NCBI GenBank assembly: GCA_030272155.1
Contig: CP126201.1
Coordinates: 4,512,501 to 4,576,500 of the forward strand
From: Tetradesmus obliquus
Lineage: Eukaryota; Chlorophyta; Chlorophyceae; Sphaeropleales; Scenedesmaceae
Length of the DNA stretch: 64,000 nt
Reading direction: 5' to 3'
The notes beneath the pieces are model-generated. The model was not told the DNA's origin. It worked only from the letters and a program-made list of their open reading frames with translations, and did not search any database. Below are positions 72-60,500 of the stretch, piece after piece; position 1 is the first letter of the stretch; the number at the start of each line of letters is the position of its first letter. The position numbers were made by a program, and so were the translations under genes.

Positions 72-716
72 CACTTGAAGCGGCTCATGATGCCCCTGCT
101 CTCCTCCTGCAGCCCGCAGATCCACAGCGCGGCAGCCAGCGCCTCCGCACACGACAGCTTGCACGGCCGGCCTGCAAGCAGACATGACAGGCGCTGGTTG
201 TGAAGCAGACATACGTTGCAGGTCACAAGCGCTTGTTGTGGAGCAGACATACAATGTGGCAGCCAGCGCCTCCGCACACGACAGCTTGCACGGCCGGCCT
301 GCAAGGCAGAGCAGCGGTAGCACAGACACCGGCAGGCAGTGGTAGACCCCAGCAGAAAACGGCAGTCAGCGGTGCGAGGGCGTGTGAGTAAGAGCTGGCT
401 GTACAATGCAGAGCTCGAGCCAGTGTGCTTGCCTGCAGTTGCCAGCTGCAGTGAGGTAGCAGGGACAGGTGCAGCAGAGCGAGTGCAGGACACCAGATGT
501 CGGCCACGCGCACAGTGCAGCAGCCAGCAACAGCTTTTGCAGAGGCAGCCTGGCAGGCCAACCTTGTGTGGCTGCGGCAAGGTAGCAGATCACCAAAAGC
601 AGTGCAACTGTTGACAGCTCAGCATCGCCCTGCCCTGCCCCCTCACCGTAGTTGACTGGGTTGGCTGCCACGAAGAACGGCAGCAGGCGAGGAGCAGCAC
701 CCCTGATGCGCCCTGC

Positions 717-752
<36 letters not shown>

Positions 753-2739
753 GCAGCAGAAGGAGCAGCAGCAGTTCAATGATGTGCGCGTGTGTACAGC
801 GCGCAAACCAAGCATCATTGTAGATGCAGCTGGTGTGCAGCATCCTTCAGACCGCAGGTGCAGCACCACTTGCAGCTGAGCATGCATTTGCTGATCTCAC
901 TTGCTGTTGATGGTAGCTGTGCATGCAAGCAGCTCACCGAAGGGCACATCCTCCAGCCTGTTCCATGAGCAGTCCACCACTGCCAGGCCCTTGGCGCGGA
1001 TCAGCGGCGCATCCTCACGCGACACAACCCTGGTGGCAGCCAGCAGACAGACGGCAGCAGATGGCAGCAGATGGCAGCAGCGATGTCAGCAGCAGGCAGG
1101 CGGCAGCAGGCAGCATCTCACACGACACCAGCCTGACATGGCAGGCAGCAAAGCACAACATATGGCAGCAGATGGCAGAAGGCAATGAGCCAGGTCAGCA
1201 CACGGCGGCAAGCGGCAGGCAGAAAGCCCTTGGCGCGTATAAGCGGCGCATCCTCACGTGACACAACCCTGGTGGCAGCCAGCAAACAGATGGCAGTTGT
1301 AAACAAGCAAGTGGTTGTCAGCGACCCAGGCAGCGGTAATTGTAAACAAGCAAGTGGTTGTCAGCGACCCAGGCAGCGGTACGTAAGGAGCCTTACGTAC
1401 CGCTGACAACCACTTGCTTGTTTACAGCAGATGGCAGCAGATGGCAGCAGCCGTGTCAGCAGCAGGCAGGCCGCAGCAGGCAGCATCCTCACGCGACACC
1501 ACCCTGGCAGCAGGGAGCACATGACAACACATGGCAGCATACACACAAGACAGTAGGCCAGGTCAGTGCATGGCAGCATGCGTCAGGCGACAGGCGGCAG
1601 GCAGCAAGCCCTTGGCGCGGATCAGCGGCGCATCCTCACGCGGCACCACCCTGGCAAGACAGCAAGGGACATAGATGACAGCGAAGCACAACAGGTGGAA
1701 GCAGATGACAAAAGGCAGTAGACCAGGTCAGCTCATGGCAGCAGGCGGCAGGCAGCTGCTGCTGCGGCCGGGGCTGAGGATGACTGTTGGGACGGGTGTG
1801 CCTAGCCGCACTGCTGTGCTGGACATGACCACCCTGCACACGATAATAAAAGAACCTGATAAACACAACCCTGCACACGATAATAACAAAACCTGATGCA
1901 GCAGCGCACCTGCTGCCGCTGGGGCTGCAGATGACTCCAGGGAAGGGAGTGCCCAGCCGCAATGCTGTGCTGGACAACACAACCCTGGGCAAAACAGCCA
2001 AGGTTTAAACGAAGATAAACCAAAACCAACGCACCTGCTGCCGCTGGGGCTGAGGATGACGCCAGGGAAGGGTGTGCCCAGCCGCAGCTCCCCCACCACG
2101 CCCTGACGCACCAGCCGCGTGCCTGCATGGGGGTGGCAGCAGCAGCAGCAGCAGCGGCGGCGGCAGCAGCAGCACACATCAGGCATTGTGATTGCAGTAA
2201 ACAGCCCACAGCACACTGCATGGACACACGCAGCAGCAAGATTGCGCAGAAGCATGTGCCCGGTAGTCATCTCTACGCCTTCAGTTACTTTCACTTTCAC
2301 TTTCATGCACATCATCAAATTCATGCATGAAACATCGCCTGCTGCGCACCTCAAACCACAGACACTAGCACCCTCCACCTGATGCGCCGGATGCAAGCCC
2401 ACCCCATCACCACCAGCAGCAGAGCATCTTTCAAGCTGCTATCAGATGCCCAAACTCACCGGTGCAGCGCTTCTTATCGCACTGTCCCAGGTCCCACATA
2501 GCTAGCCGAATGCTGCTGCTGCTGCTGCCGGCTGCCTGCTGCTGCTCGTCCTGCTCATCGCCACTGCCAGCCTGGTCTGCTTGTGTCGGCAGGGTATTGT
2601 GCTCTGCTTGTTCTACTGCATCCTCCCCAAATCCAGGCCTGTGGTGCCGCCCTTTGCCTGGCTTGTTGCGGGGCTGCTTCTGGTGGCCGCCAGGGCGGGG
2701 CATGGCTGCTGCTGGTGCTGCTGCTGCTGATGGTGGCAC
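72..2739 (-). CDS. TSR3: TSR3-like 18S rRNA aminocarboxypropyltransferase (3' end beyond window)
   Basis: TSR3 transfers the aminocarboxypropyl group of S-adenosylmethionine to a hypermodified pseudouridine of 18S rRNA during small-subunit maturation. Five exons in continuous phase read leftward: 2739-2460, 2122-2035, 1029-938, 712-647, 171-72. In order they carry the family landmarks: LAMWDLGQCDKKRCTG; TRLVRQGVVGELRLG followed by PGVILSPSG; GLAVVDCSWNRLEDVPF; APRLLPFFVAANPVNYG; and RPCKLSCAEALAA ending SRFKW. The residues before LAMWD are a low-complexity leader rich in Gln, Ser and charged residues. The start at 2739 is the first Met of that frame; 2703 is an alternative. The gene continues left of base 72 past a good donor (GTGCGT). 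Three of its junctions have tandem partial copies in the introns. Identification rests on motif order and is firm; exact splice choice among copies is less certain. Confidence 0.87.
131..305 (-). repeat. Tandem copy of TSR3 exon 5 acceptor junction
   Basis: About 45 bases (acceptor CAG plus the first residues RPCKLSCAEALAA) occur at roughly 131-175, where the exon continues to its donor, and again at roughly 258-305, where the reading is lost after Ala-Ala. The distal copy keeps its AG and lies upstream of the used exon in transcription order. Confidence 0.85.
719..771. repeat. CAG/CTG-rich tract
   Basis: CAG run with some AAG variants, just upstream (in transcription sense) of the TSR3 exon 4 acceptor. 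Read on the minus strand it is a CTG tract abutting the 3' splice site. Confidence 0.8.
1029..1660 (-). repeat. Tandem copies of TSR3 exon 3 acceptor junction and GGCAGCAGAT minisatellite
   Basis: The 5' end of exon 3 with its CCACCAG-type acceptor recurs at about 1224-1280 and 1607-1655, with a shorter remnant near 1481-1508. These are embedded in a field of degenerate GGCAGCAGAT-like repeats. Only the copy ending at 938 continues to VVDCSW and a donor. Confidence 0.75.
1299..1424. repeat. Fold-back hairpin element in TSR3 intron
   Basis: A 14-base arm (1374-1387) is followed by a 4-base loop and its perfect reverse complement (1392-1405). A further arm of about 19 bases (near 1341-1360 with 1406-1424) extends the stem. 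The left half, with GTAAACAAGCAAGTGG, is itself present twice in direct orientation (from 1299 and from about 1342). Confidence 0.8.
1752..2090 (-). repeat. Tandem copies of TSR3 exon 2 donor junction
   Basis: The exon 2 end, coding LGTPFPGVILSPSG, with its donor is seen at 2090-2035 (used in the model). It recurs at about 1965-1910 (LGTPFPGVICSPSG, donor kept) and about 1810-1755 (LGTPVPTVILSP, donor lost). Period is about 125-155 bases. Confidence 0.82.
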
Positions 2740-3197: not shown

Positions 3198-5074
3198 ATG
3201 CAGCTCAGCAGGCCCTGCGTTCGCGGGCAGACCGCACTTAGGCAGTCATCACGTAGCGTGGCGTTGAAGGTGTGCAATGCTGTGACAATGGGCGAAGTTG
3301 CGAGCACCAGCAGGCCCAGTTCAGTGTATCTTATGTGACCTGTTGTGCCTGCAGCCCGTCCGCAGCGTGAGCCTGCGCGCTGCTGCAGAGGAGGTCGAGA
3401 TCGCAGCAAACAATGGGGCCGCGCCTTCTAGCGTGCCTTCAAACATGCTGGATTTCGAGGAGCTCTCTGACATCGTCAGGTCAGCCAAGCGGCGCAATTC
3501 AGTTGCTTCAGATGCAGCCAGATAGCGCAAACTTCATTATACTTACGGTAGATTTATGGTATTTTGGCAGAGGTCTTGCTCGAGTTGTTTGGGCTTCGAA
3601 AGTGCTGCCTTCAGCCCAGGCGTTACGTCGAAAGCAGTGCTGCTGCGGTTGGTCAATTGATGGCTTGCAGCACATCTTATCACTAAAGATGTCTTTAGCA
3701 GCCGCTGGTGGCAGCGGGCACTGGTCTTGGGTCTCTAGGCTCACCAAGCCAGGATGGCACAGCAGCAGTACCAGCGTGCAGTGCTGACAACCGCATCAGA
3801 GTGCAGAAGCAGGTTGTGTTTGACCAGACTTGGCATGCTTGCGTGCTTGCAGGATGGTCAACGACACTGACATTGTGGAGCTGGAGCTGAAGAGCAAGCG
3901 CTTCAGCCTGTCACTGAAGAAGAAGGCAGCACTGCAGGAGCAGGTGGTGCAGGTGGGTGCATCACATGGGGCGTCACTTTGTCATTTCAAACATACAACA
4001 GCCCAGGCTGTGTATCTTTGTCCGGCTAGTACCCCTGCCCACGGTCCAACTCTGCAAGTCCTGGCGAGTGTATGAAGTATACCGGAGCGAGTCATAGCCA
4101 TTTGCAGTTGTGACTGCCCATGAAGCTTGCCGACGCAATTTGAAAAAATCTGCTGCATGTGCAAACTCAACTCTGCGCTCTCGCCAATATTCTACCGCCG
4201 TGCTGCAGGTGGTGCAGGCAGCACCGGTGGCCATGGCCGCGCCGGCGCCAGCAGCTGCTGCACCAGCAGCGGCACCAGCAGCAGCAGCACCCGCGCCGGC
4301 GCCAGCAGCGCCCAAGCCAGCAGCAGCACCAGTGGTGGAGGGAGTGGAGGTGACCAGCCCCATGAGCGGCACCATGTACAGGTGAGCCTTTTTCCCTCTT
4401 TCAGTGTCGGACGCATGCTTTGTTGTATGATACGAACCCCTGCGGTTGGCTTGACAGTGGTTGAGGCGGTGGGGTCGTCAGCCGCACGGGCCTGTGGCCT
4501 ATGTACAGTCTTATACCAGCCCTATGGGCCTATATACAGCTGTGCAGCCTGAATATTGAAGCCAGGGATGAATGTATGTTGTTGTTATGTTGCCAACTCC
4601 TGCGGTTCTTGATGGTAACGTTAGGCCAGCATCAGTTGCACATCTGGACGGCTGCCATGACACATGCCATGTGCCCTTGCGGGTGACAGAATGTGTAACC
4701 AGTTCAGTAGTCTGACCGTCAGCTGTAGTCTTCAAGGAGTCGCGTGCTGCCTTTGCACAGATCAGGCAGCAACTGAACGGATCCAACACCCAGCAGCACA
4801 GCACACCATGTAGCTGCTTCTGACATCGCAATTCGCCTGGAGCAACGCAGCGCAGCATCATACGCGGCCAGCTTCAACGACCGTGTCGCAACATATCAAT
4901 TGTGTTCTGGTGTGCGTCACCCTCATTCACAGCCGGTAATCATGGCGGTGGCCTAACCTCGCCGTCCTGCTGCTGTGTTGCCCTGTTGCTGCTGCCAGGG
5001 CTGCTGCGCCTGGCGAGCCTCCCTTCTGCAAGGAGGGCGACCGCGTGAAGAAGGGCCAGACGGTGTGCATCATT

Positions 5075-5105
<31 letters not shown>

Positions 5106-5188
5106 TGGGTTCAAGGCTTGGGTTTCTAGTGGGTGCTGCAGCTTAGGGCTCTGGGCCACCAGGCAGGGCATATGTCTGGCACATCTTT

Positions 5189-5219
<31 letters not shown>

Positions 5220-5805
5220 TGGGTTCAAGGCTTGGGGCTTTGGTTTGTAACGGGTGCTGTACCTCAGGTTTAGGGTTGTGCAGCTCATTTTTCGGGATAT
5301 GTAGCTCATGATTAGAGTTATGCAGCTCATGTTTGGGGTTGTGCAGCTCATGTTTAGGATTGTGCAGCTCAGGTTTAGGGTTGTGCAGCTCATGTTTAGG
5401 GTTGTGCATCTCAGGTTTAGGGTTCAGCTCAGGTTTTGGGATATGTAGCTCAGGGTTTGAGATGGCAGGGCGTTTCAGAGGGGGCGGCCAGCTGATGGTG
5501 AAAGCCAGGCTGGGACAGGGGTGGGGTTAGCAGCCTGGACTTGATACGGCAGTGATTGAGGCTGAGGTGTGATCACACATGACGCGCTGCATTGTTGCTT
5601 GCTTGCAGCCTTGCGACAATACCCTACGGGCATTGCTGAGGTCTTTGCCTGTGAAACCATTTCACACATGACTTCAATATAACATGCTGCTGCCGTGCAT
5701 CCTTTGCTGCCACAGGCTGAAGTTGCTGGCACAGTGGTGAAGGCATGCGTGGAGAATGGCCAGTCTGTGACACCCGGCCAGCCTCTGTTCATCATCAAGC
5801 CCTAA
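3198..5805 (+). CDS. accB: Biotin carboxyl carrier protein of plastid acetyl-CoA carboxylase
   Basis: This is the biotin-bearing subunit of heteromeric acetyl-CoA carboxylase, which carries carboxyl groups between biotin carboxylase and carboxyltransferase in plastid fatty-acid synthesis. Six in-phase exons: 3198-3269, 3355-3479, 3853-3952, 4209-4381, 4999-5104, 5716-5805 (221 residues). The start AAAATG opens a Ser/Arg-rich, acid-poor leader typical of a plastid transit peptide, with [10 protein letters not shown] near the likely cleavage region. Then come [27 protein letters not shown], a flexible Ala/Pro linker (residues about 100-145), [11 protein letters not shown], and the biotinylation motif [10 protein letters not shown] whose Lys is the attachment site. 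The protein ends [12 protein letters not shown]. Intron 5 carries a duplicated exon-end and a minisatellite. A TGTAA signal follows the stop by about 80 bases. Confidence 0.93.
5075..5241 (+). repeat. Tandem copy of BCCP exon 5 donor junction
   Basis: The last 30 bases of exon 5 ([10 protein letters not shown]) plus the donor GTGGGTTCAAGGCTTGGG are repeated 114 bases downstream (from 5189). The copy includes the biotinylation codon and a complete donor. Confidence 0.9.
5275..5460. repeat. Minisatellite with TTTAGGG units in BCCP intron 5
   Basis: Units of about 18-20 bases of the type TTTAGGGTTGTGCAGCTCA are repeated roughly eight to ten times with variants. The embedded TTTAGGG equals the plant/green-algal telomere unit, but it is interspersed rather than in a pure array. 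Confidence 0.8.
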
Positions 5806-5883
5806 GCAGCTGCTGCGGATCTGCTGTTTGAATCAGCGTGCGACAGCTGAAGCAGTTGAGGCAGGGCTCGGCATACTTATAGC

Positions 5884-5888
5884 TGTAA
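5884..5888 (+). terminator. TGTAA polyadenylation signal of BCCP
   Basis: TGTAA about 80 bases after the stop. It matches the usual chlorophyte poly(A) signal. Confidence 0.55.
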
Positions 5889-7320: not shown

Positions 7321-8321
7321 ATGCCACCAGCATTTGGGAGCAGCAGCAAACTTGCTGGCTGGCTGTGCTTGCTGTTGTGCGCTAACAGCAGCATACAGGG
7401 CTGTGTTGGTCAACGCAAGGAGGAAAAGGTGGCCTGGCTGGTTCCTGAAGGTGAGCTGCTGGGCACACAGCCCTGTATCAGCAGGCAGCAGCAAGCCAGC
7501 AGTGCAGATTCTATTACATCACTGCGCTTGGTGACATCACTGCCTACATATGCAGCTGGAATGCCTGCTGGGTATCCTTGCACACACATGCACAAACACA
7601 TCATGCCCGCACCAGCAGACTACTTTGGCACATGCCGATCAGGGATCGTCTCAGCTTGACGCAACGCAACTAGCACAGCACACTACAACCAGCCCGCCGC
7701 AGCATTGCAGCAGCTGCAATCACACTGGGCACATCTAGATACATGTTGCAAAGTTTACAAGCCATCCAGCAAGGCTGCCTGCATCCTGCATATGCCGCCC
7801 TGCACCCGCGCAGCTTTTCTGCAAGCAAGCGGCAGCCAGAAAGCCAAAAGCACAACCATCACACAAGCAGATGAATCCAAAGTTTCTAAACTGCGCAACT
7901 CACCCATAGCTGCTCTCATGCATGCGTGTTGATGTCCATCCTGACCCTGCTCGATCATATTGTGCACCCGCACCGCTTTCCTGCAAGCAGGCGGCAGCCA
8001 GGCTGCAGTGCCTGCGGGTGCCGCCACCTTTGCCAAGGCTGAGGAGTTCCTCACGGCCAAGCACTTGGCTGTGTATGATACGCTGATGATGACAGCAGAC
8101 TACAGCATAACAGCAGAGGCCTGGGGCCAGAAGCGCTTCAGTCTGCAGCGCAATTTGACCATCGCATCCCCGCCCGGGTTTGTGTTCAAACTGGAGTTTG
8201 ACTTTATAACACAGGGCCTCGCGGTGCCGAAAGGAATAACAGTTACGTTGCGCAGCATTGCGCTGGGCAAAGTGCGGGACACGGCCGGCTGGTCGCTGCC
8301 GTTCTTCACAGGTGAGCAGGC

Positions 8322-8365
<44 letters not shown>

Positions 8366-16694: not shown

Positions 16695-16700
16695 GGAACA

Positions 16701-22565: not shown

Positions 22566-24230
22566 TGCTGCTGCTGGGCAGGTGATGGCTACTGCAGCTG
22601 GGTGTGGACAGCAGCACATCAAACAAGTGCCACGTGTGTGCACTGGTCAGCAGCTGAACCTGGGCCCTGCATGGGCTAACTATGCATTACACTACATTAC
22701 ATTACATTACATTACATTACATTACATGCTCCACTCAAACGAGGAGTGGGAACCACAGTCAGGAGCCAACGAGAGGCTCATAGAGGGAGGAAACATCGAA
22801 GAAGAACTCATCGTGCACACACACACGCACACACCAACATGACAGTTGCCAAGCAGCTGCATCACAGCAGCCACAACACGCTACTGCTCCGGCCCCCTTA
22901 ACGTCCCCATTCCCTCACTTGAAGCTCATGACCAGGTCCACCTCGCTGCCCCCCACCCCTCCCACACACAAGCATGCAGCAGCAGCCCCTCACTTGAAGC
23001 TCATGACCAGGTCCACCTCGTTGGCCACTGCTGCTGCCGTGTTGCTGTCATGATGCAGCACCTTGACTGCCACCTCCATGCCCCGCCAGCTGCCCTTGTA
23101 CACGCGGCCAAAGCTGCCCACGCCTAGCAGCAGGCCTGAGGGCAGCAGCAGCAGCAGCAGTCAAATATGTCAGCACCAGGAAGCAGTACATCAAGCGAGA
23201 GCTTGGACAACAGCCACAACACAAGACAGGCAGCCAAGCGCCACGGTACACACAACATTGCAGCTGAATGGTGCCTGGGACAAACCTGGCACGGCCACAA
23301 TACACAAAGCAGCAGGCAAACACGACTTGTGAACTGTCCTTGGCAGCTGTAGCAGCCAGGTTGTTGCATCATCAGCGAAGCGCAGGCTGTCAGATCCGGC
23401 GCGCCACCGCCCACTCACCCAGTGTGATCCTGTCCTTGGGGGTGGCAATCGCCAAATCAACAAAGCATGATATCAGATTGAGTCAACATGCGTCGCGCCC
23501 CCAGCCACTTACCCAGCGTGATCCTGTCCTTGGGCGTGGCGTCCCTGAACTCTGGCGCGTTGTGGCAGGCCATCAGCCGCCAGCCGCTGCTGCCGTCAGC
23601 ACTACCAGCGCCTGCCGCCCCCGTGGCCACGTCCTCAATGGTGCCGCTGGCGCCGCTGCAGGCGCCGGGGGTGGTGGAGGAAGGGCAGCAGGCAGAGTGA
23701 GGCGGATGGGCAGTGGCAGCAGCGACAGTGATGATTGCGTTGGAAAGTGCGTAGAGTGCGTAGAGGCTGGTGGGCTTTTCTGCAGACCCTGTTTCCTCTC
23801 TGTGTTGTTCTGACGTGCTATTGTGTGTGCGTCACAATGTATGTATGTATGTGGGGCCTGCGAGGGCATGGGGCAGTCACCACGATTGTCGCAATATCCG
23901 CATGCCGGCCACATGGGTACCCCACCCACATATATCCTCACACTGCACTGGACTGTACGCAAAGCATGTTGCGCTGCACATGCACTGGCCCAATTGAAGC
24001 AGCTGCGCCACCAACAGCGCCCCCCCCCCCCCCCCCCCACCTGCAGATGTTGGCCAGCCGGTCAGCAGCAGGCCCGGAGCCCCAGCCGCCACTGCCGCCA
24101 GCAGCAGCAGCACCCTCGCCACGGTGACTCGAAGTGACGCTGCGCGCACACGCCACCTGCTGCTGCTGCTGCTGCTGCGGGGTGGGGGGCCTGGCTGCCT
24201 GCTGCTCACTACTGTCTGGCCCTGCGGGTG

Positions 24231-46200: not shown

Positions 46201-49200
46201 TGTACAGGCTATGTCGTACGAGCAGGGCGGCAAGCCGCATCATCACGTCAGGCTGCGGCTGCTGCAGCCTGAAGGCGGCAGTGCCAGCTTGCCTGCTTTG
46301 CTGCGTTTGAAGGAGGCCGGGCCGCATGCTAGCGCAGCAGCTGCAGCTCTTGCTGCCATTGCTGGTCATGCAGCAGCAGCAGCAGCAGCAAATGATGCGC
46401 CACCCAAGAAGCGTACATCTGGCAGCTGTCGTGAGCAGAGTGAGGGCGGCAGCGCATCTGAGGAAGAAGGAGAAGATGATAAGGAGGAAGAGGAGGAGCA
46501 GGACAGGCGGTCATCGCTTGCAAGCGAGGATGCACTAGCAGCAGTAGGGCATGCAGATCCACAGTAAGCCTGTCGCTGCTTATATCAAACTAAGCTGCCT
46601 AGGTGCCACGGGCCGTAGATTGAACACAGCAGGTCAAAGACACCTGTGTATGCTTTGATCCAGCTGTTGCTTGGCTATTCAGGAATCAACAAGTTGTACG
46701 GATGGCAGTGCTAACGATGCCATGCTTCTGTGTGCCTGCTGCTGCCTCCCTGTTCTGGCTGCAGCCACCGTGTGTCGCAGTGGGTCAAGCATGCTGCTGC
46801 CCATGCAGCAGCACCTGCAGATCCAGCGCACCCACGGCAGCATCCCCCAACACCGCGCTACATCAAGCCAGACAAACCAAGCTCTGACGATGAAGACGAG
46901 GAGCCACAGCAGCAGCAGCCGCAAGCTGGGTACATGTCAATGGGCAGGGCTGCCAGTGCTATCAGCAGTGCCACTGGCGAGGACAATGCCAGTGCTGGGC
47001 AGGGTGCTGGTGGCGCTGCTGATGCTGGCATGCTCGGCGTCCTGCCTGACGGCTCGGAGCAGGAAGAGGATTTGGCTGTGGACTTAGGGTGCGCGTCAGC
47101 AGCAGTTGCAGCCGGTATGATGCCTCCAGGGCGTCATATTCCTGTTCTGACAGCAGTGGTTCATTGCACCGAGGTGGCCTTGCTATGCTTGATGAGGCAG
47201 CAGCATATACTCTGTAGTGATGGAACGAGATGCAGGACTCATTGCGCAGTGTGCAATGTATGTTGAATGTCTTTGAAGGTGCTGACATTAGACTGACGAC
47301 TCAATGTACATCGATTGGGCACACTGTTTTCACCTGCAGGCGTTCCAAGCGATTGAGGCGGCTGGGTGGCCTGCTCAGCGGCAAAGTGGCACAGGCAGCC
47401 ACTCACACCTGGCGCGACCACAGCCGGCTGCTACTGCTCGTGGCGCTGGTGGCACATGTGGCGTGCTTTGCAGCTCTGTCGGGACAGCTGCACAGGCGCC
47501 ACCAGTGAGCTGCGATCAGCAGGGCTGCTTTTCCCTGCTCTGCTAACCCATGGCAGTGCTGCTGTGCTTATGAATGATGTACTGTGTTATTCTTGTTAGT
47601 TTCAGGCTGATCTAGCACCATGCATCAACCCCTGCAGCAACCTTCACCTGCTTGTGCTGGTGCCAACCGGCGGACATCTGCAATACGTTCCCCGTTGTGT
47701 TCAATTTGCTTGCAGGAACATGCAGGATGTCTCCAACATCTCCAAGCTGCTCACAAGCACCCAGCAGGCAGTGCTGAGGATGAGGTTCATGCAGGCGAGC
47801 ACCAGCAGTGTTGTAGCGTGGAAAGGTCGTTGCACATGTGTGTGCAGAGATTATGTGCATCTCTTTGCCGCATGGCCTGAAGCTGCAGGGCAACTGCTTT
47901 GCAACTGCTGCTGCTGCTGCCGCTGCTGCTGCAGAAGTGCTACATGCCAGCCTACCAGAAGTACTGGGTCTGCAACAAAAGCAAAAGGAATCACTACGCA
48001 CAGCAGCTGGGAGATAACATGGAAGAAACCAATGTGTACCACCATGCACTATACCTGAAGGGTTAGAAGGATGCACGCTTGCAGGTAGCAATGGCGAAGG
48101 ATAGCATTGCCTTTTGGTTCAATGCACCGCTGCTGAAGATGTGCAGTGCTTGATGTGAGAAGCCTGGTCTAGCAAAAGGGATGCATGGTTGAAGTAGCAG
48201 GATGTGGTTTCCGCCAAACTGCATTCCTCAGCCAATGCACTGTGCTGTGGTGTCTGGACGTGCAGGACTACTGGACCAACAAGCAGCTGAACGAGGTCAA
48301 ATTTGTGCCACGCCTGGGCAACAGCAATGCCACCAACGTGCGCATCAACGGCACCGAAACACTCTGGGTGAGTTCAGTTACGCTGCAGAGCACACGTGCT
48401 GCCTTCTGCTGTTAGGGGCTGTATATTTGCGGCAGGAAGAAGCACATGCAATGGCAGCCACCAGCTGGTACGTTGCCAGCCTTGCCTGGTACACCTGTAC
48501 AAGCTGATTGCTTCAACCAGTACAGACAAGGCTGGTGCAGTACTTCAATCAGAACCTCACCAGTCAATAAAACCAGACACTTATCAGTGCAAGGTTGTGC
48601 ATTGTGTTCTATTTTGCTCACTCTCCTTTTCTGGTCTCAGATTGTGTGTTCAACCTGTTGTGGCTCATAACATCCAAGATGGTGCCAGGACCCACATGCA
48701 ATTATCCTCTCTCAAAAATAGAAAACTCTTGTGTGTGCAGGACATGGGCAACAAGGTGGTAGCTGCTGGCAGGGAGCTGCAGTTTGTGGCTGACTCAGTT
48801 GGCGCCGCCATGCTGAACACCACCTACTTTCAGCACCTGCTGAACAACATCCCCGGCTCGCTGTTCGCTGGCTATGCCTGGTCGCTGGATACATTTGTGG
48901 ACTATACGCTAGCGGATCTGGCGTCCCTCTCAAGCATCATCATTGTGATGATGGTGGTTGAGGTACGCAGCACCCTGCATGCAGGTGCCGTGGTGGGGCG
49001 GTTACCTTGTAGGCGTGGCAAGCATTTGGCGCTGTTTCATTGCCTGTCAAGTGGGCATTTCATTTATGGCGGCCACATACCAAACTTGTCATGTTGCGTT
49101 GATCCTGTTGACAGACGCTACCATGTGTGAAGAGCAGTCTTCCTGCCACATCTGCATGGCTTGCTGTCCACCATGCTATCTCACACATTGCACCTGTATG

Positions 49201-51866
49201 GCGTGCTGCTGTCCTGTTGACTCCAACCAGGCGCTGGTGGTGCAGCTGGGCTGCATGGTGTACCAGGCCTACCTGCTGCAGCGCTGCAACATGGCACACA
49301 TGCGGGTCTTCAGCGTGTTCCTGGCGCTGCCAAGCGCCACAGTGCGCATCATGGCAACACAGCAGATGCAGGTGGGGTGGGCAGCTGCAGTAGAGAACGC
49401 TTGCATGAAGGTGGGGTCTACAATAACATTGCAAGCGTATCCTGGAGCCTGCCCATCATGTGGTGTTAAGTACTTTGTTTGTAACTTGTGGATTCTCAAG
49501 GCAAAACATGCTGCCAATGAGCTGATGGTGTTAATTTGATAGAGCTGCAGGCACAGCGAGCCTGCACATGAGTCACAAAGGGGCAGTGCTGTTGAAGTCT
49601 CGGCCTTGCCAACGGGCGATGGTCTCGTGCAGGTGGATGAAGAGGATGGTGCTGATGCTGGCAGTGAAGACGACTTTGAGCTAGGAGACATGGCTGGTGC
49701 TGCAGCAGCTGGCGATGCAGAGGACAGCGGCGCTGGCGCTGGTGCTGCTGCTGGAGCGGCCAGCAGCAAGAGGCAGAAGTCTGTACGCATGGATGTGGCA
49801 GGTGTGTTGACCCTCAGTTGTCTGGCAGGGGATGGCGAGTGCGAAGGACAGGTTCGCATGGCACGATGTGATGAACAGCAGCAGCTGCTGCTGTTAGGCA
49901 TCCACATCACATGCTGCCAGACATTGCTCCTGCTCTTTCATTGTGGTCATCTAGTGAGCTGCTGGTGCATAATGCATGCCTGCAGAGGATGATGAGGCAG
50001 ACTTGCCAAAGAAGGCAGGCAGCAGCAGCAAGTCCAAGGCCAAGAAAGACGCCAGCGGCAGCAAGGCACCGCTGCTGGGCAGCAGGCACAAGCCGCCGCC
50101 CACTGCCTGGCAGGCATTCAGCAAAGCCGCGCACAAGCGGCTGCTGAGCTGGCTGCACCCAGTGGTGAAGTACAACGGCAAGACGCTGAAGCCCAGCAAT
50201 GCAGTGCTGGCTCGCTTCATGGTGAGCAGCGCAGTGCAGGCACATGTTGTGGTGCCACCACATGCGGAACTGCAGAGAGTGTGGTATGATGCTGCGTGCC
50301 TCGTATGGTCAGGCGCAGTCAACTGCAAAACTCTGCAGCCCTGCAATGCAACAGCGCAAGACAAAGCACACAGTATGATCCAGTGCTGCCTTCACTGCAG
50401 CATGCTGCCGTATGGCCTCCTCTGTATGCGATCTGATCTGTGCAAGGCAACCGCCACAAAACCAAAACACAGGGAAGCCTGTGCTTCGCCTCATCTGCTG
50501 CACATATGCATGTCACACAAGGACACTGGCGGACAGGATGATGATCTGATGTCGCTTGTATGCCATGGCTGTGCAGGTGCCACTGATGCTGTGGGTGACA
50601 GCTGTCATCGTCATCTTTGGTGTATCAGCTTACAAGCTGCACGGCATGCAGGTGCGCAGCCTGGCAGCACAGCTGTCAGTGGCAGTGACAACACACCACA
50701 TCAGCAGACAGACGTCTTGCTTGTAGCGATCAAGCCAGTGGCATTGCGTTTTTTTCTTGTAATGCACATGCTGGCCCTGCCAGCACACTTGGCAGGCAAT
50801 CGACACATACCTCAAATCTGATTGCAAGGGTGGACACACGCAGGATGATTGCAGGTTGGTGGGACGGTTGGCCGCGGCTTCCCATCTTAACAACCGGCTG
50901 AGCGTGTGCTTTTGTCAGCACACTGCAGGGCCCGCTGGCATCCCTAGACACGCTCGTGCATGTCACATACCGCGTGGCACGCGTGCGCGCAGCCGCCACC
51001 GACCTGGTCTTCAGCAGCGCAGCCAACCCGCTGAAGCGAGCCGCGTACCGGCAGGCGCTGTACGAGCGCGCGCTGGAGCTGCAGTCGGAGCACAACACGC
51101 TGCTGTACGGGGGGCGCATCATGCTGGAGGTGAGGCGTGTGAGCTCACACCCGAGGCCTGCGGTGGACTCAATGGTGTGCCAGTGGAGGCTGCAGCGTAG
51201 CGTGCCCTCAGGAGCTTGTTTGCAGCAAGGGTGTACATTTCAATCAAGAGCAATGGCGTCATTAAGGTAACTCGATCTCGATCTGCGCTGCTGCTGCTGC
51301 TGCTTTTGCTGTGTAGGCCAACGTCAGCTTTGACGGTACGGCACCGGCATCACTGTTCCAGAATCCTGAGGTGTCAGGTAAGCAGTGCTGTTGCTGCACC
51401 GAGTCTGTGCATCTGAATTTCATGTTGTTCTCGGCCTGGTCAACACAGCAAGCGGCTGCTCTCCGAGTCCTGTGTTTACTGTTTGACTTGCAGCCCGAGC
51501 GCAGCTGTACCAGCTGTTGCACGCAAATGTGCTGGGGCTGAGGCATGTTGCTGGTGCTGCTGCTGCTGCTGCCGCCTGCAGACCTGTTCTTCAGGTCCAG
51601 AAAGTGCCTGCGCCTGGACCAGAGCAAGTGCGTGCCGCCTGGCGATGAAAACTACGACATCACCATGGGTGGCCTAGACAGCATGGTGAGGGGGCTGTGG
51701 GATACATGTAGGCATCTTAAACAGACGCAGGACGTACTGCCAGAGAATGTGAGCAAGGCTGATGACTGTGCACACCTTGCATGTCTAGCACTCATACACC
51801 ATGGGTGTGACTGATGGCAGCCGCTTTCACAATCTGATTGGCAAACTCGACATATCGTCTTGTGCG

Positions 51867-51902
<36 letters not shown>

Positions 51903-52879
51903 ACAGCTCGGCAAGTTCACTGACATGCAGATGATGTTGTGCCTAGCGCCAGACAGCATGATCAACCCAGACCACCCTGCGTAAGTGCACTGTACAGCGC
52001 TGCTGGATGTGCCTGTGTCACACATGTTGTTTGCATTTGCAAGCCTATCTGTGTTGTCATTGTTCGCAGTTGGTAGCGCATCGCAGGTGGTGCACAGCTG
52101 CAGCCTGTGCTGCATGCACTTGAATCTGTTGTTATGAGTGTAAGCAAGCTGCTAGTTAGGCGCACAACCACATGCAATGTGACCTGAGCGTAGTGAGCAT
52201 CATGACTAAGTCACATGGTGTACTGCCAGGCTCGCCATTTATATCCCTGCACCTGCCTGCAATGCACTGCACCTCTGCAGGTACCTGTTTGCCAGCAAGA
52301 TTGTCGCTGGTGATGTGTATGATGGCCTGGCAACGGCTGCAGATGTGTTTGTCCAGTGGCCTATAAAAAGGTGCGCACCTGCAGATGCAGCAGCTGGATG
52401 AGGCACAGCAGCGGAATGTAGTGCTGGCACGACAGCCACCAGCCAAATAACTGACAACAACAGAGACGTGCTGCCGTCTTTGCGGCAGCAAACTTCACGT
52501 CATGCTGGCTATGGCTCACAAGACATAGGCCTCCAAGGCTGAACAGCACTGGCAATACACACTGCCGCCATCGCACTGCAATATGCACCACTACTTGCTG
52601 CTGAGCAGTCGCCCCTGCTGCTGTACCTGCTGCTGCACTTGTTGCTGCAGGCTGGAGCAGGTGAAGCAGCTGCACATAATCCTGCTGGCTGCCTCGCTGG
52701 CTTGCATGCTGCTGTACTTCATTGCGCTGTACCGGCCCTACTTGGCGCAGCTGCGGCATGATGACAAGGCGATAGTGGGGCTGCTGAGTCAGCTGCCTGC
52801 TGAGGTGGATGTGGAGGGGCATGTGCGAGCAGTGCTGGCGGCCGGGGCTGCAGCTGCTGACAAGGACAGCAAGCAGTAA
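37230..52879 (+). CDS. TmcB-like PAS-domain multi-pass membrane protein
   Basis: One large gene of about 42 exons (2,228 residues), resembling the TmcB/TmcC-like PAS proteins expanded in green algae and thought to be sensory. Sequence order: Ser-rich N-terminus; about eight hydrophobic segments (exons at 37681-40413, e.g. HMLFSVAVCILLAGMVLLM); helical-repeat region (PSLLVMYANFL, AHPSLLGLYN, LLSHVEFQRNYS, AHKMALMSQRQFW, PDSGKLLKVYGRFLEFVQNDPEAARHYY); PAS 1 (DGLVIINAQGLMLLVN, ending NISVLMPQ) near residues 670-735; PAS 2 (GAVMVVDHKARLVYTSDQL) near 895-950; PAS 3 (YKGTILSVNPGASKALYGF) near 1020-1070; a weaker PAS 4 near 1190-1240; an acidic linker; then C-terminal helices from HSRLLLLVALVAHVACFAAL to LHIILLAASLACMLLYF. 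Phase is kept throughout if exon 10 ends at a non-GT donor and exon 15 uses a GC donor. Exon 30 (47848-47960) is tentative. Confidence 0.85.
40072..40413 (+). other. TmcB-like exon 10 with AT-type donor
   Basis: Frame and family pattern require FGEFVLK to join SGMARLPGDPSLL at 40641, both phase 0. The base after the exon is A, not G (AAG then ATGAGA), while the frame runs into TGA at 40441. Confidence 0.6.
42234..42273 (+). other. TmcB-like exon 15 with GC-AG intron
   Basis: A 40-base exon (PQASTSQQDAFMQ) ends CAG followed by GCAAGTG, a classical GC donor, and joins exon 16 at 42468 in phase 0. Confidence 0.7.
51872..51904 (+). repeat. CTG tract abutting TmcB-like exon 40 acceptor
   Basis: About eleven CTG units directly before the acceptor GACAG at 51906. 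Confidence 0.9.
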
Positions 52880-53503: not shown

Positions 53504-56500
53504 ATGAAGGTGTTCATCGACATCGACATTGGCGATGCTGCAAAGTACCAACAGGAGTCAGCAGCATACCAACGAGCAGTGGACTTTATGCAGCAATGCG
53601 GGTCGCAGTACGGCCTCAGCGGCAGCTTAGCAGATTTAGATGAGGAGGGATTGCAGATGCTGCGGGAAGGGTACAGCAATGACCCCAACTGGAGCAGCAA
53701 AGGTGGGCAGAGGTGCTGCCGCTACAGCTGCTGCCAGTGCTGCTGCTGCCATTGTCACCCGCAGCAATTGACACTCGCGATGACACCCACAATGCAAATG
53801 CACCATATGCATTGCTTCGAGTTCCTGTGTCATGCCAGATTGGTGGGTGCAGCTGTGCTGTCTCCCACCAGCATTACAGTGCAACCTCTGGGTATCTCCT
53901 GCTGGCACTCAAACAACAACACAAGCTAGTGTTCTTCAGGCAGCCTGAAGGAAACAGTCTGCTGTACACTGCTGACAGAGCAGAATACATTTAGTTACAA
54001 TTTGAGCGAATGAGATGCAGCAGATGCAGCAGGCAGCAGCAACAGCAGCTCAATGTTTGCTTGCAGTTGTCAGGTGGCCGTGTCCGACACCAGAACTGCA
54101 GCACACGCATTGTCACTGGAAGTATACATGAGCAACAAAATTTTCAACTGCTTTTGCTGCTGCTGCTGATTTTGTGCTGCTGTTGCTGTCTCTGCACTTG
54201 GCAGGGGAGATGAGCACGCAGCAGCCGCCGCCGCTGCGTGCCGGCCGCATTGTAGCTGAGCTGTTTGACAAGGAGGTGCCAAAGACAGCTGAGAACTTCA
54301 GGTGGCTGTTACTGGCATTTGAAAGAAGCAACGCGACTTGTAGCACCTGTGTTTGGCTGCCAGCATGTTGCTGCGTACCCGGTCACTGCAGCCACAGCAG
54401 ATGCTGTACACCCGGTCCCACACTCTGGAGATGGTGCCAGGTGCAAGCGTGCTACTCCAGTACAGCTCTATAGTTGGATCGCAGTTGCACATGCTGCCGC
54501 ATGTTGCAGAAGCATAAGTGCAGATTGTTGTGACAGGTGTCTCCACGGCTGCAACACATGGTGTCGGCTTGCAAGTCGCCCCTGTGCTTTGTCGGTGTGC
54601 TGCTGATCTGTTACGCTGCTGCTGCTTTTGCTCCTGCTGCTGCTGCTCCATTTGCTGCTGCCAGATGCCTGTGCACTGGCGAGAAGGGGCTGGGCAAGTC
54701 CAGCAAGAAGCCGCTGCACTTTAAGGTGATATACAGTTTTCGATCATGCAGTCAATGAGCTTGGACCCAGGTGCTCAGCTGCACAACATCGGACAGGATA
54801 TATTGTTGCAGCATACCTGGAGACAAAACAGCTGAGGAGATGCTGTGCTGGCTCTTCTTTTGGTGTTGCTTGCTTGCTGGCTAGCTGGTGCTTCTGATGT
54901 AAGTGTAATCCATTGCTAAGAATTACATGCTACTGTTATTGCTGCTGCTGCTGCCACAGGGCACCAAATTCCACCGGATAGAGCCTGGCTTCTGCTGCCA
55001 GGGCGGCGACGTGGTGCGAGGTGCGGCGCAAGCTGCGCTGACCTCTGTTTGTCATGAAAGACACATCAACCCATAGCAGTAAAGCCATCTGCAGCCATAT
55101 GCAGTCGCGCAGCTCTCTTTTGAACCAAATCAAAGTCATATGGCTGTGCTAGCAGCAGCATGACAAATCACAGCATTTCAAAGCTGACGCTGCTATCCTC
55201 ATTTCATGCAGGTGACGGCTCTGGTGGTAACTGCATATATGGCGGCAAGTTTAATGATGAGAAGCCGGGCCTGTTGCTGAAGCATGACGACTCACAGACA
55301 ACAACGACTTACATTCTTAACCACAATTCCTGCAGGTGACGGCTCTGGTGGTGACAGCATATATGGCGGCAAGTTCATTGACGCTGCCAGCGACGCTGCT
55401 GTGTTGGCTGAAGCATGGCTATTCTTCACAGCAAACAAAGACTGACGCTGCTAGCCTCATTCCCTGCAGGCGACGGCTCTGGCGGCGACAGCATATACGG
55501 CGGCAAGTTCAATGATGAGAAGCCGGGCCTCAAGCTGAAGCATGACTAAACACAGCAATTATATGCTGACACTGTTCGTACTAATGTCTGCAAGTGACGG
55601 CTCTGGCGGCGACAGCATATACGGCGGCAAGTTCAATGATGAGAAGTCGGGCCTCAAGCTGAAGCATGACTAAACACAGCAAATATATGCTGACACGGTT
55701 AGTACTAATGTCTGCAGGTGACGGCTCTGGCGGCGACAGCATATACGGCGGCAAGTTCAATGATGAGAAGCCGGGCCTCAAGCTGAAGCATGATGCTGCA
55801 GGGGTGCTCAGCATGGCCAACAGTGGCAAGAACAGCAACAGCAGCCAGTTTTTCTTCACACTGGCAGCGGCGCCGCAGTGCAATGGTGGGTTTGATGGTT
55901 TTGTACAGGGGTTCAAACGCTCTATGAAACTACGCTGGTTGTTTTGTTTGGCATAGCGCTGCATGGTTGTGTCCTGACCCTGCTTGCTGTGAGTTCAAGT
56001 GCACAGATGGGCTTGCAGATCATTCAGCAGCACACGGCACGATCTTACAGCAGCACGGCCAACAGCGGCAAGAACAGCAACAGCAGCAAGTTCTTCTTCA
56101 CACTGGCAGCGGCGCCGCAGTGCTATGGTGGGTTGGATGCTGTAGGCCACGGTGTTCGGGGGCTGGAAGGCGTGCGTATATGACCTGAAACAACGGCCTC
56201 CCCTCCTTTTGACACCCGATTCTGTGATGCTGCCGCTGCTCCGCTCCTCGCTGCCGGCAAGCACATTGCGTTTGGCAAGGTGCTGTCAGCTGGAAAAACC
56301 CTGCTTGCCCCGCTTCAACACCCAATTCTATGATGCTGCTGCTGCTCCGCTCCTCGCTGCAGGCAAGCACGTGGTGTGTGGCAAGATGCTATGAGCTGAA
56401 ACAACTGCCTCCCCTCCTCTGACACCCAACTTTGCGATGCTGCCTCTGCTCCGCTTCTCACTGCAGGCAAGCACGTGGTGTTTTGCAAGGTGCTGTCAGC

Positions 56501-56753
56501 TGAAAACCTGCTTGCATTGCTCTAACACCAGGCTTTGCGATGCTGCCGCTGCTCGAACCATCTTGCAGGCAAGCACGTGGTGTTTGGCAAGGTGCTGTCA
56601 GCTCAAAACCTGCTTGCATTGCTCTACCACCTGGTTCTATGATGCTGCCGCTGCTCCGCTCACGTTGCAGGCAAGCACATGGTGTTTGGCAAGGTGCTGG
56701 AAGGGCTGGACATCCTGCAGCGCATTGGTGAGCAACACAGCAGCAGCAGCAAC

Positions 56754-56789
<36 letters not shown>

Positions 56790-57069: not shown

Positions 57070-57093
57070 AGTGTGGTGTGCTGCCTGGGTGCA

Positions 57094-57098
57094 TGTAA
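57094..57098 (+). terminator. TGTAA polyadenylation signal of cyclophilin
   Basis: TGTAA 25 bases downstream of the stop. Confidence 0.55.
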
Positions 57099-57561
57099 CA
57101 TTCAAGACCTTATTATGCTTTGGGGTTGAATCATCGCTTAGTTTTCAGGCTTTATGGTTTGAACGTCGCTCAGCCTCCTTTCCAAGGGGTCCCCAACAAC
57201 AAGCTTGGTGGGGTGGACCTGGGCATAAAAAATGGGACATCAGTCCACAGCTATGAGACCTACATCGTGTCTGAGCTTGCCTCGGAGTGCGGCAATGTCA
57301 TAGCTAGTGCAAATTTTTACATTGTGAACGCTATGTTGGATGGGGCGAGCTGGGCGTGCTTACACAAAACGGTTTCTGCTACAGGTCTCTGTCACATGAA
57401 ATGCTGGTTGCTAGCACCGCATCACAAAAAGCTCGGCTGTTACAGCGTACGAAGCACCGCAAAATATTTCAAGCGTGTCTGAGTTGTCCTTGCCAGTGCA
57501 TGCCAACAACCCTTCTTCGTACCAGCACTCAGACAGCTCACATGAGGGCGAAACAAGCAGC

Positions 57562-60500
57562 ATGAAGCCGCACGCTCGTGCGAGCCATCCAGAGACGTTG
57601 CTCGTAGCCGACTGCCGCCTGCAGGACAACGAGGAGGAGAAACCCAAGGTACTCAGCAGCATCAAGCAGCAGTAAGCAAAGCTTTCCGCTGAATCTGGCA
57701 GCTGGGCTCAAAACAACTGTACACACGATGTGCATAACGTGGAAATGTATGAACCATCCATCAGCAGACGACGAGCAGACGACGAGCAGTGCAGCAGGGC
57801 AACCTGTCACGTCATGGCTCCACCACCCCTGCTGCTTCCACCTAGTCTGCTTCTGCAGCGGGTGGTGGTGGTGGTGGTGCTCTGAGATCTGGCACTGGAT
57901 GAATGTGTTGCTGTTGCTGCTGCTTCTGCTGCTGCTGCTGTTGTTGAATATGATGCTGCGCCTGCTACCGCTGCTGCCCGTTACTTCCCATGCCGCAGAA
58001 CATGCCTTGGTGGAAGGATGAAACAGTCCTGCAAGTGGGGTCGGCGCTGCTGTGTGAGTGCAGCTTGGCAGCAGCAGCAGCAACAGCAGCAGCAGCACAG
58101 AGGCTGGCAGGGATGAGGAAAGGTCACACATGCAGGTGGCTGTCGCCACTGACGACGGAAGCCAAACACCACGTACCACATATCAGCACGATAGTAAGCG
58201 AACAGCGTCATGTGCTGGTCAGCAGTGTACTGCGGCTCCCATGTTGCTGTTCTACAAGGGGTGGTGCAGCAATGTACTCAAAAATTATACGCGTGCCATT
58301 TCATTGCTGCACTATGTGCACCTGCTGTCGTACCAGGTGGTTCAGCCATTTACATCCATCATTGTGGCTTGTCACAGCAGTGGAGGCATCGTCGCTGCTG
58401 AGAGGTGTAAACTGCAACCTGACCATGCAACGCAACCGCACAACTCTCGTACTAGCTCAATGGTGCTGCCTCCTGCTGCTGCTGTTGTGCAGATGCTGTT
58501 GTTGCGACAAGCATGAGCATAATCAACCGGCTGTGCCTCCTGGTCTTCCCGCTACCAACCGTGGTGCTGCTGGTGCAAATGGCATCGACAATGGTCATAC
58601 TATACCCGCTGCTGCTGGCGCACGTGCTCAACTTCAGTCTTTTTAATCCCCGCCGCTTCAAGTCTCTGCTTGGGATAAGCTTCCTATACACGGCCAACAC
58701 TGCCTTTGCTCTGTTTGGACTCAAGGGCATGAACCTGCCAATGTGAGTGTGCAGTCCTCAATTAGGTTGTGATAATGTGCTGTGAAGTGACGGGACGCAG
58801 GATGCACGTGTCGCTCGCAGCTGTCAATGCACGCACCTGCACGGATGTGCTGTCCAACCCCTCGGGCTGCATGTACACATACATCCATTAACCAATCTGC
58901 CGCTCCCCCATCGTACACACCAAACTGTCATCCACTCAACCTGCCTGTGTCCTTCTGCAGGTACACTGCCATGAGGCATGTAGAGCTGGTAGCTTGGTTA
59001 CACATGCGTTATGTTTTTGAAGTGACACAGTGTGGAGTTTGTCAGGAAGGGCCACATGCAACTGCACGGCAGTGGCCCTTGTGTGCCTGCACAGCTCCTG
59101 ACAAACTGCACACTGCGTCAATTTGAAAACATAACACATGTGTAACCAATGTCAACGCTGTACGCTTGCAGGTACATTGCGATCAAGCGCCTCACTCCAA
59201 TGTTTATCCTCATCATCACATCCGTGTGGAAGCGCAAATGGCCGCACCCCCGCATCACACACAAAGCCAACACACTTTGCGCAATGCTTCACTCTGCAGG
59301 TACACTGCCATCAAGCGCCTCACCCCCATGCCCATCCTCGTCATCAAATCTGTGTGGAAGCGAAAGTGGCCGCAGCCGCACATAACACACCAAAAACTAA
59401 CACACTTTATGCAATGCTGCACGCCTGCAGGTACACGGCGATCAAGCGCCTCACTCCAATGACCATCCTCGTCATCAAATATGTGTGGCCGCAGCGGTGC
59501 AACACACACAAAACTAACAGCAAACCAACACCAATCTTGCAACGCTGGCCATCTGCAGGTACACTGCCATCAAGCGCCTCACTCCAATGACCATCCTCAT
59601 CATCAAGTCCGTGTGGAAGCGGAAATGGCCGCACCCCCGCATCACTGCCTCTGTGGGCCTGGTGGTGGTGGGCTGCCTGGTGGCTGGCGCGGGTGACCTG
59701 TCATTTGACGGCACGGCCTACCTGTTTGCCTTTGGCAGCGTGCTGGTGCAGGCGCTGTACCTGCTGCTGGTGGAGTTCCAGGTGCGCTGCAGTGTAGTAC
59801 CGAGTTGCTTTGAAGGGCAAGCGGTACACTTTTCATCCAGAGCAGCAGTACGTAGTCACATTGTTATAGTAATAGCGTGCGGTTACGTAAGTGTGCAAAA
59901 GCCATCCGGCTATCTTGCTGGCATGTTGGTTTGAGTTGTGCATCGCGTTATGGTCTTTGACGCCCAAGCGACGTCAGGTGTTGTCCCCTGCTGTGGTGAA
60001 AGCTGAGCTGGCTATGCTGTGTGCTGTGTGCTGCAGAGTGATATGTATGCGTATATTCACCATCGTTTTTTCCAGGAGGAAAAGTGCAAGTTTGACCCCT
60101 ACTGGAAGAGGCCGAGCTCGCTGTGCTGCATGCTGTGTGCTGTGTGCTGCAGAGTGATCTGGCTGGCGCGTCGACCTCGCAGCTGCTTTGGTGCAACGCC
60201 ATGCAGTCGCTGCCGCTGCTGTGAGCACGGTGCTGTTTTGCTCTAAGCACACTTGGCATGCTGCCTGCCGCGGCCTGCGCTGTGCTGCTGCAGAGTGACG
60301 TTGCTGGCGCGTCGACCTCGGAGCTGCTCTGGTACAACGCCATGCAGTCGCTGCCGCTGCTGCTGCTCATCACAGCAGCCAATGGTGACTTCACGCGCGT
60401 GGCGCAGCACATACAGAGCGGCAGTGCGGCGCATGGCGCGTGGTACTTTTACTTCATGGTGGTGGCTGCATCAACAATGGGGTGCCTGCTGAATTACAGG

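Follow-up and report, generated by a model that had tools for sequence, protein, structure and literature searches.

Copies of exon edges inside the adjoining introns of Tetradesmus obliquus genes

Intragenic duplications are reportedly common and able to feed exon-intron evolution (as cited in PMC4974935). A tandem duplication across one intron-exon boundary has been described in an RdRp gene of potato (Ma, Lan and Niu 2016, PMC4974935). In Daphnia, internal direct repeats were found in 55 of 90 new introns and attributed to staggered double-strand breaks (PMC4202315), and tandem duplication and break repair have both been reviewed as sources of introns (PMC3443670). Another model, described in PMC3443670 and PMC4974935, starts from tandem duplication of an AGGT inside an exon, where splicing leaves the peptide unaltered. 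Here we describe extra copies of exon edges, with their splice sites, inside the adjoining introns of a 64-kb stretch (the window, C11:4512501-4576500) of Tetradesmus obliquus, for which a 2018 paper gives a G+C content of 57% and an average intron length of 462 bp (PMC5966456). The copies are real and occur beyond the window too.

Our sample comprised the window and 25 random 10-kb stretches drawn from all 17 contigs, together 314 kb of a genome of 104,662,953 bp. The G+C content of the window is 0.53-0.60 per 4 kb. All exon edges are predictions from DNA alone, made by a simple, self-trained gene hidden Markov model (HMM) with the window and random stretches as training set. It converged on CAG/GTGAG donors and CTGCAG/G acceptors and predicted 481 introns in the 314 kb. 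The model reads some young copies as exons, which splits introns and inflates their numbers there, and some swaps of used edge and copy persist in the counts. The position, density, side, edge-limited identity and decay of the copies reported below are observations on these predicted gene models.

A junction-anchored search of 90-bp edges against 1 kb on the intron side covered 352 donor and 337 acceptor edges, and found a copy within 1 kb at 95 of the 689 (52 donor and 43 acceptor edges). These 95 families remain after removal of 18 of 113 whose exon was itself a copy. In a like-for-like test with 60-bp queries and a score of at least 44, a copy lay in the own intron of 22/272 donor edges and 24/265 acceptor edges. 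Unrelated introns gave 0/272 and 0/265, exon interiors 1/91 and 1/107, and shuffled introns 0/272 for donor edges (acceptor edges were not run against them). Intron heads had a copy in the rest of the intron in 7/308 cases, and intron tails in 2/250. One random stretch, L009, has repeats that are probably true protein repeats and supplies 5 of the 95 families. It is included in the 95/689 count, the count of stretches, the third-position ratios and the direction counts, and excluded from the cluster scan and from the offset and intron-likeness (n=88), codon-position, branch-split, indel, splice-dinucleotide, exon-versus-intron-identity and per-gene counts.

The cluster scan, made in 60-bp segments over 304 kb, returned 124 clusters of local repeats: 82 exon+intron, 29 intron only, 10 exon only and 3 intergenic. 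This supports a preference for gene bodies over intergenic DNA. A nearby copy was found for 328 of 1980 junction-spanning segments. Among exon segments the counts were 76/538 at less than 20 bp from a junction, 11/465 at 120-239 bp and 33/988 at 240 bp or more. Intron segments, with the copies themselves counted in, had 33/656 within 20 bp and 117/1115 at 120-239 bp, and intergenic segments 41/1850.

The copies also have a preferred side. Exon tails had a copy downstream in 59/319 cases and upstream in 30/321, exon heads upstream in 46/307 and downstream in 22/306, and exon middles in 1/68 and 1/66. Because the model reads some copies as exons, the wrong-side matches are probably too many. Among strict pairs with the copy in a predicted intron, all 28 had it on the intron side, as a sequence-only reading of the window had claimed for acceptor copies (5' of the used exon) and donor copies (3' of it). 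Of 109 strict pairs, 57 are one-junction pairs, in line with the related claim that a unit spans one splice site. Nearest-copy offsets were 75-519 bp (n=88), with 65 of the 88 at 110-165 or 230-270 bp, and had no frame preference (32, 24 and 32 at 0, 1 and 2 modulo 3). Their distribution is bimodal around these two ranges, with none of the 88 between 195 and 216 bp.

The window contains 23 local-repeat clusters, namely 16 exon+intron, 5 intron only, 1 exon only and 1 intergenic, and its self-BLAST gave 35 local repeat pairs. The 16 compare with about 17 duplicated junctions in the sequence-only reading. The genes named there all carry clusters, and kinase A has one more. By gene, three lie in the minus-strand model at 1-2703, one in BCCP, two in kinase B, one in kinase A, one in the thioredoxin-like gene, three in the hydrolase-containing model, three in the cyclophilin gene and two in the transporter gene. 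TSR3, BCCP, cyclophilin, thioredoxin-like, hydrolase and transporter are putative names taken from that reading and from motifs, among them a presumed TSR3-like motif at 131..310, a presumed BCCP motif and what we take to be the cyclophilin frame. For kinase A, an exon has matches to protein-kinase models of Pfam. Five further window exons, searched singly and including one from the thioredoxin-like gene, had no Pfam match, and an Rfam scan and a tRNA scan (ARAGORN, bacterial setting) of the window were empty. The features are listed here with window positions; decimals and percentages are identities.

131..310, minus strand: acceptor-edge copy at 258-298, used edge 171/172; 100% over 41 bp of exon
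984..1654, minus strand: acceptor-edge copies at 1226-1268 (0.93) and 1605-1650 (0.93), used edge 1029/1030; intron parts significantly homologous
1759..2086, minus strand: donor-edge copies at 1910-1961 (0.92) and 1759-1810 (0.85), used edge 2034/2035
5068..5268, plus strand: BCCP donor-edge copy at 5182-5218 (0.97), used edge 5104/5105
7801..8001, plus strand: kinase A acceptor-edge copy, 7801-7839 against 7963-8001; 90% over 39 bp
22912..23026, minus strand: kinase B donor-edge copy at 22919-22951, used edge 22993/22994, 41-bp spacer; not seen in kinase A
23394..23540, minus strand: kinase B donor-edge copy at 23411-23446, used edge 23512/23513; not seen in kinase A
27898..28237, minus strand: thioredoxin-like acceptor-edge copies at 28042-28080 (0.92) and 28178-28211 (0.88), used edge 27936/27937
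32152..33000, plus strand: donor-edge array with exon-tail copies at 32407-32494, 32657-32744 and 32906-32995, used edge 32246/32247
34690..35116, plus strand: acceptor-edge array with copies starting at 34705, 34820 and 34934, used edge 35048/35049
35202..35349, plus strand: exon+intron local repeat from the cluster scan
37230..52879, plus strand: largest gene, 38 predicted introns without an edge copy; internal negative
55143..55793, plus strand: cyclophilin acceptor-edge array with copies starting at 55212, 55336, 55470 and 55594; used exon start taken as 55718
55809..56139, plus strand: cyclophilin donor-edge copy, 56051-56139 copying the exon tail 55809-55897
56179..56699, plus strand: cyclophilin acceptor-edge array with copies starting at 56257, 56363, 56467 and 56569; used exon from 56671
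59145..59645, plus strand: transporter acceptor-edge array with copies starting at 59172, 59300 and 59431; used exon from 59559
60136..60362, plus strand: transporter acceptor-edge copy at 60153-60221, used exon from 60294; 0.91

In the first cyclophilin array the reading frame runs on from 55718, so the used exon was taken to start at that position; a start at 55470 was also called by the gene model. The cyclophilin donor edge is at 55877/55878 in the gene model, and the presumed cyclophilin frame suggests 55885/55886.

Beyond the window, at least one family was present in 15 of the 25 random stretches, very unevenly, and 240 kb of these stretches held 66 exon+intron clusters. A straight, rough extrapolation would put tens of thousands in the genome. 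Genes were affected to very different degrees. The UPF1 gene (L031), one exon of which matches UPF1 structures (E 1e-21), had copies in 16 of 29 introns, the L022 gene in 8 of 16 and the L019 gene in 6 of 15, while 15 of the 38 genes having at least four introns were without any. Such differences between loci had been noted before and proved strong across these 38 genes (chi2 98.5; 0 of 2000 permutations as large). The largest gene of the window, in which none had been noticed, indeed had them in 0 of its 38 predicted introns. Exons of L022, L019 and L031 tested genome-wide had close copies only locally, except for one 72% match for L019.

The same pattern was found elsewhere in the genome by a chaperonin (PF00118) profile search that uses no gene model. 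On C16, an exon matching profile positions 40-101 is preceded by matches to 38-71, 42-69 and 45-69, and an exon matching 325-376 is followed by 342-376, 348-375, 348-376 and 348-396. On C17, matches to 55-75 and 54-75 come after one to 47-75. Counting by hand, we found such overlapping neighbours at about 5 or 6 of the 11 PF00118 loci in the list; none were seen at the loci on C2, C3, C8, C9 and C11. A GTPase (PF00009) at C16 has 62-118 followed by 78-122 and 91-122. The edge coordinate is mostly common to the copies. At the DNA level, the donor array of the C16 chaperonin comprises four more edge copies of 90-96% identity and a partial copy of 83%; on the acceptor side, three copies are 90-92% identical. 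Splice sites are present, and the intron heads of the donor array are visibly related. TTAGGG/TTTAGGG-like runs occur in the intron heads of this array (L035 donor array), and in the window a 21-bp tandem repeat with a TTTAGGG-like core (5263-5454) adjoins the BCCP edge copy.

We then considered what a copied unit contains. The sequence-only reading gave each unit 40-150 bp of intron. At high identity the copies are instead mostly exon edge plus splice site: among 57 strict one-junction pairs (at least 90% identity), 42 have an intron part of at most 15 bp, 49 an exon part larger than the intron part, and 4 an exon part of at most 15 bp. Random placement would give 0.21, 0.465 and 0.27, respectively. 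In simulations of tandem duplication, breakpoints were random, the used edge was constrained and the copy evolved neutrally (ages uniform to 0.2, coding phase random, used intron head forced to begin with the donor consensus). Among simulated pairs of at least 90% identity, the exon part was larger in 0.50-0.57 and the intron part 15 bp or less in 0.12-0.18, and slowing the copy to 0.4 gave 0.69 and 0.27. Therefore, identity really tends to end at the splice site. Plain decay, with slow exon divergence and loss of alignment in the intron, was rejected, as the simulation does not support it even for copies slowed to 0.4. Base by base from the splice site, intron identity was 0.95, 0.93, 0.86, 0.83 and 0.84 over the first five positions and fell to 0.55 at the next (58 copies; this table and that of splice dinucleotides pool donor and acceptor rows).

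Part of the copies may nevertheless repeat as whole units, head to tail. Among the 88 nearest copies, 49 still had similar intron parts, a likeness equalled by no more than 1 of 100 shuffles, with an intron mismatch of 0.173 versus a third-position difference of 0.162 in these 49. Significant intron homology was present in 13 of the 28 edge-limited pairs of high identity, where no more than 3 of 300 shuffles did as well. The others share the exon edge only. Of 15 copies with exon identity of at least 0.95, 10 had intron identity of 0.80 or less; at L011 9150, an identical 45-bp exon tail stands beside intron parts at 69%. By eye, the arrays at 32152 and 34690 consist of n exon copies and n-1 alike spacers with an unrelated outer flank, which is the sequence past the last copy in the first array and the intron ahead of the first copy, beyond about 15 bp, in the second. 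This arrangement fits exchange with the edge as homology. The array at L016 8777-9608, with intron parts differing by 5% over 161 aligned bases and exon-tail third positions by 12/30, is a mosaic against any simple clock and may be a true coding repeat.

The copies look unused, since frameshifts and stops gather in them: 55 of 67 indels in their exon parts shift the frame and 12 are in-frame. In 35 families with at least two copies, changes unique to the used edge fell on codon positions 1, 2 and 3 in 6, 12 and 54 cases, and copy-unique changes in 59, 53 and 104. The concentration of used-edge changes at third positions indicates that constraint acts on the exon-attached copy. In the 22 families with the used edge nested among the copies, copy-unique changes were 91 nonsynonymous (N), 63 synonymous (S) and 4 stop (neutral expectation 0.653/0.317/0.031), which comes close to neutrality after correction for synonymous changes in the used lineage, and changes unique to the used edge were 6 N and 19 S. 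Five mixed families had 21 N, 17 S and 1 stop among copy-unique changes. Many decoys keep their splice dinucleotides, as had been observed, with GT or GC in 54/63 and AG in 42/50; exon identity alone predicts 51 and 42. Introns with a copy had a median length of 163 and those without of 251, a comparison confounded by copies called exons, which split introns. Most simply, the copies would be unused intron sequence, with an unexplained minority.

To explain these observations, we favour tandem duplication across junctions followed by re-copying of the exon edges by exchange, a reading to which we assign a probability of about 0.5. Short segments straddling splice junctions would be tandemly duplicated, repeatedly, in gene bodies. 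The duplications would be tolerated because the splice site on the exon body continues in use, and the extra copies would become intron. The intron parts of the unit would then drift freely, and the exon-edge parts would stay alike longer, the used edge being under selection and the edge copies recombining together. Unequal exchange or gene conversion may expand, shrink and re-copy the edges, the exchange tract stopping where homology stops, at the splice site. The copies would thus be unused fossils recording successive exon states, as the data support. Old intron parts beside young exon edges favour a tandem origin followed by edge exchange. Both this re-copying and the idea that the outer site stays in use are inferred. 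The earlier proposal of tandem duplication plus tolerance keeps its junction-spanning units, intron-side copies, many arrays and differences between genes; in its plain form it is not supported as an account of the anatomy of the copies.

Several results weigh against this explanation. We infer the re-copying step from the sequence of one genome. The 82:29 ratio of exon+intron to intron-only clusters lies above the 1.4-2.0 expected from uniform placement with simulated detectability. No significant intron homology was found in 15 of the 28 edge-limited pairs, nor in 27 of 44 in an earlier set, so a tandem origin is unproven for those. Differences in the 28 strict pairs (56 S, 33 N, 3 stop) are more synonymous than exchange with neutral copies should leave. 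Third-position excess stands above plain neutrality, at 2.82 between used edge and copy and 2.38 between copies. In eight families with the used edge as outgroup, copy-unique changes look constrained (14 S, 3 N, 2 stop), although swapped roles or true coding repeats may account for this in part. Overall, copies change at an estimated 0.4-0.7 of the rate implied by synonymous change of the used edge, a figure sensitive to the assumed synonymous share, and exchange alone leaves this slow rate unaccounted for.

The kinase genes bear on a second explanation. These paralogues are inverted relative to each other, A at 7.8-13.3 kb on the plus strand and B at 19.4-25.9 kb on the minus strand, with aligned blocks of 70-96% identity. 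They differ by 0.121 at third positions and by 0.133 in alignable introns (of 2476 intron bases, only 1083 aligned), which makes fast introns by themselves an unconvincing reason for edge-limited identity. The two donor-edge copies of kinase B have no counterpart in A, and neither has the intervening spacer. The repeats comprise 27 exon and 7 intron bp around a 41-bp spacer in one case and surround about 50 bp in the second. At 23394, the sequence past the second copy clearly continues as the intron of A; at 22912 the A-like continuation is weak and starts after about 20 bp. The 23394 spacer had no other match in the genome, in a search that skips very common words. As side observations, the pair is useful for dating intron events, and a predicted exon of kinase B (24570-24770) consists of a 15-bp repeat in 13 copies.

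These kinase B repeats, with their unmatched spacer and the resumption of A's intron, fit what templated insertion would leave: staggered-break or end-joining repair, just inside the intron, would add novel filler and a flanking copy of the exon edge and so create spaced direct repeats, as has been proposed for new Daphnia introns. The 15 of 28 edge-limited pairs without intron homology suit it as well. The other 13 do have that homology, and the mechanism would require break sites concentrated no more than about 15 bp from splice sites. As to the kinases, a gain in B would speak for filler insertion, but a loss in A by recombination between the repeats would explain the difference equally well. 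We consider templated insertion unlikely, though a serious contender.

Plain tandem duplication at random breakpoints, with a selection sieve and neutral decay but neither exchange nor anchoring, accounts for placement near the sieve expectation (1.1 : 1 : 0.48 for one junction, intron only and intergenic under uniform placement). It also agrees with the alike intron parts in 49/88 nearest copies, whose mismatch matches that of third positions. Its difficulty is the anatomy described above, where both simulated fractions fall well short of 42/57 and 49/57, and the 10 of 15 near-identical exon copies with diverged intron parts. Intergenic clusters were also too few, 3 against the approximately 14 expected from the intron-only count. 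A pure sieve was rejected, as uniform placement with simulated detectability leaves a modest junction excess and an intergenic shortage. Plain duplication therefore appears rather improbable to us.

Two further mechanisms are doubtful. The inner copies could be functional RNA elements, decoy splice sites with their exonic enhancers that selection maintains for tuning splicing or intron retention. The likeness of the exon edge and some 5 bp of splice site, which drops at the sixth intron base, would agree with this, as would copies that seem somewhat slower than synonymous sites of the used edge. Splice dinucleotides, however, are little better kept than predicted, frameshifts and stops accumulate, and presence differs between paralogues; we give the idea little credence. 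Splice-site-guided copying of exon edges into the adjoining intron, for example by RNA- or cDNA-templated repair, would produce splice-edge satellites and leave just such a sharp end of identity at the splice site (42/57 within 15 bp versus the simulated 12-18%). This, too, we regard as a long shot.

Alternative or mutually exclusive coding exons are very improbable, and the suggestion that useful alternative exons arise here found no sign in its favour. Some copies are preceded by AG and read in-frame by the model (32389-32496, 32639-32742 and kinase B 22912), and the third-position excess and the eight synonymous-rich outgroup families would suit coding use. Mutually exclusive exons keep their reading frame, whereas 55/67 indels here are frameshifts and offsets lack frame preference, and inclusion in UPF1 would repeat conserved helicase segments. 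Decoys as coding sequence had been entertained on an early omega of 0.23 and the third-position excess, and were rejected as a general reading when the branch split put most of the synonymous excess on the used edge and showed stops and frameshifts gathering in the copies. An assembly artefact, such as two haplotypes in tandem, which exons alike beside introns unlike and offsets near 125 and 250 bp (resembling read lengths) might recall, is hardly credible given arrays of at least four copies with graded divergence, 17 chromosome-size contigs of 3.1-11.1 Mb, no N in 294 kb checked and strong differences between genes. Explanations by diverged alleles, paralogues or 'seamless' AGGT splicing fitted poorly and were set aside.

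Other repeats were noticed along the way. The window contains a perfect 301-bp tandem duplication (16093-16695, 100% identical) in sequence called intergenic, either very recent or an assembly feature, and a great many runs of CAG/CTG triplets, which encode stretches of Q, A, S, L or C according to frame. L023 8449-9971 has a 718-bp duplication at 98%, 806 bp apart, also in sequence called intergenic.

Rare events are the usual evidence from which intron gain and lengthening are deduced, whereas very many junction-anchored duplications lie in conserved genes of this one genome. As each copy would keep an earlier state of its exon edge, intron growth and decoy tolerance in splice-site choice become open to direct tests. 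The copies also allow tests of how fast gene-internal repeats expand and contract, and of why genes are hit at half of their introns or at none. A practical hazard is that gene finders, the present HMM included, read young copies as exons.

Among the best-matching papers listed in a search of the mostly open-access literature, no title described recurrent exon-edge copies in algal introns, and the parts consulted of the Haematococcus genome paper (PMC7617258) and of PMC5966456 contain nothing on them. Introner elements (PMC9860276) resemble our case in the mass change of introns. An introner-like dispersed family was not seen: self-BLAST of the window, low-complexity filtered, gave no same-strand repeats beyond 1500 bp, and four queries (three exons and one spacer) matched almost only locally. 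The AGGT model likewise involves tandem duplication and a peptide unaltered by splicing, but it needs an AGGT within an exon, whereas existing junctions are multiplied here. In Daphnia, direct repeats are also thought to lengthen introns. Those repeats are internal to new introns, while ours consist of exon edge and splice site; both copies in kinase B agree with direct repeats on either side of novel filler, or equally with a loss in A. The potato RdRp duplication is closer, as its segment joins the 3' part of an intron to the 5' part of the next exon. It is a single case in which a new intron arose via a cryptic donor, whereas the duplications in T. obliquus are recurrent, affect donor and acceptor sides and are apparently absorbed by the existing intron. 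Internal gene duplication in general repeats a segment nearby within the same gene, as we found, but here identity is anchored at the junction, approximately 1 in 7 tested junctions is hit, and unused edges rather than whole introns result. We conclude that these copies represent a known process, internal gene duplication, in a strong and widespread variant whose edge-anchoring is left unexplained by simple duplication and decay.

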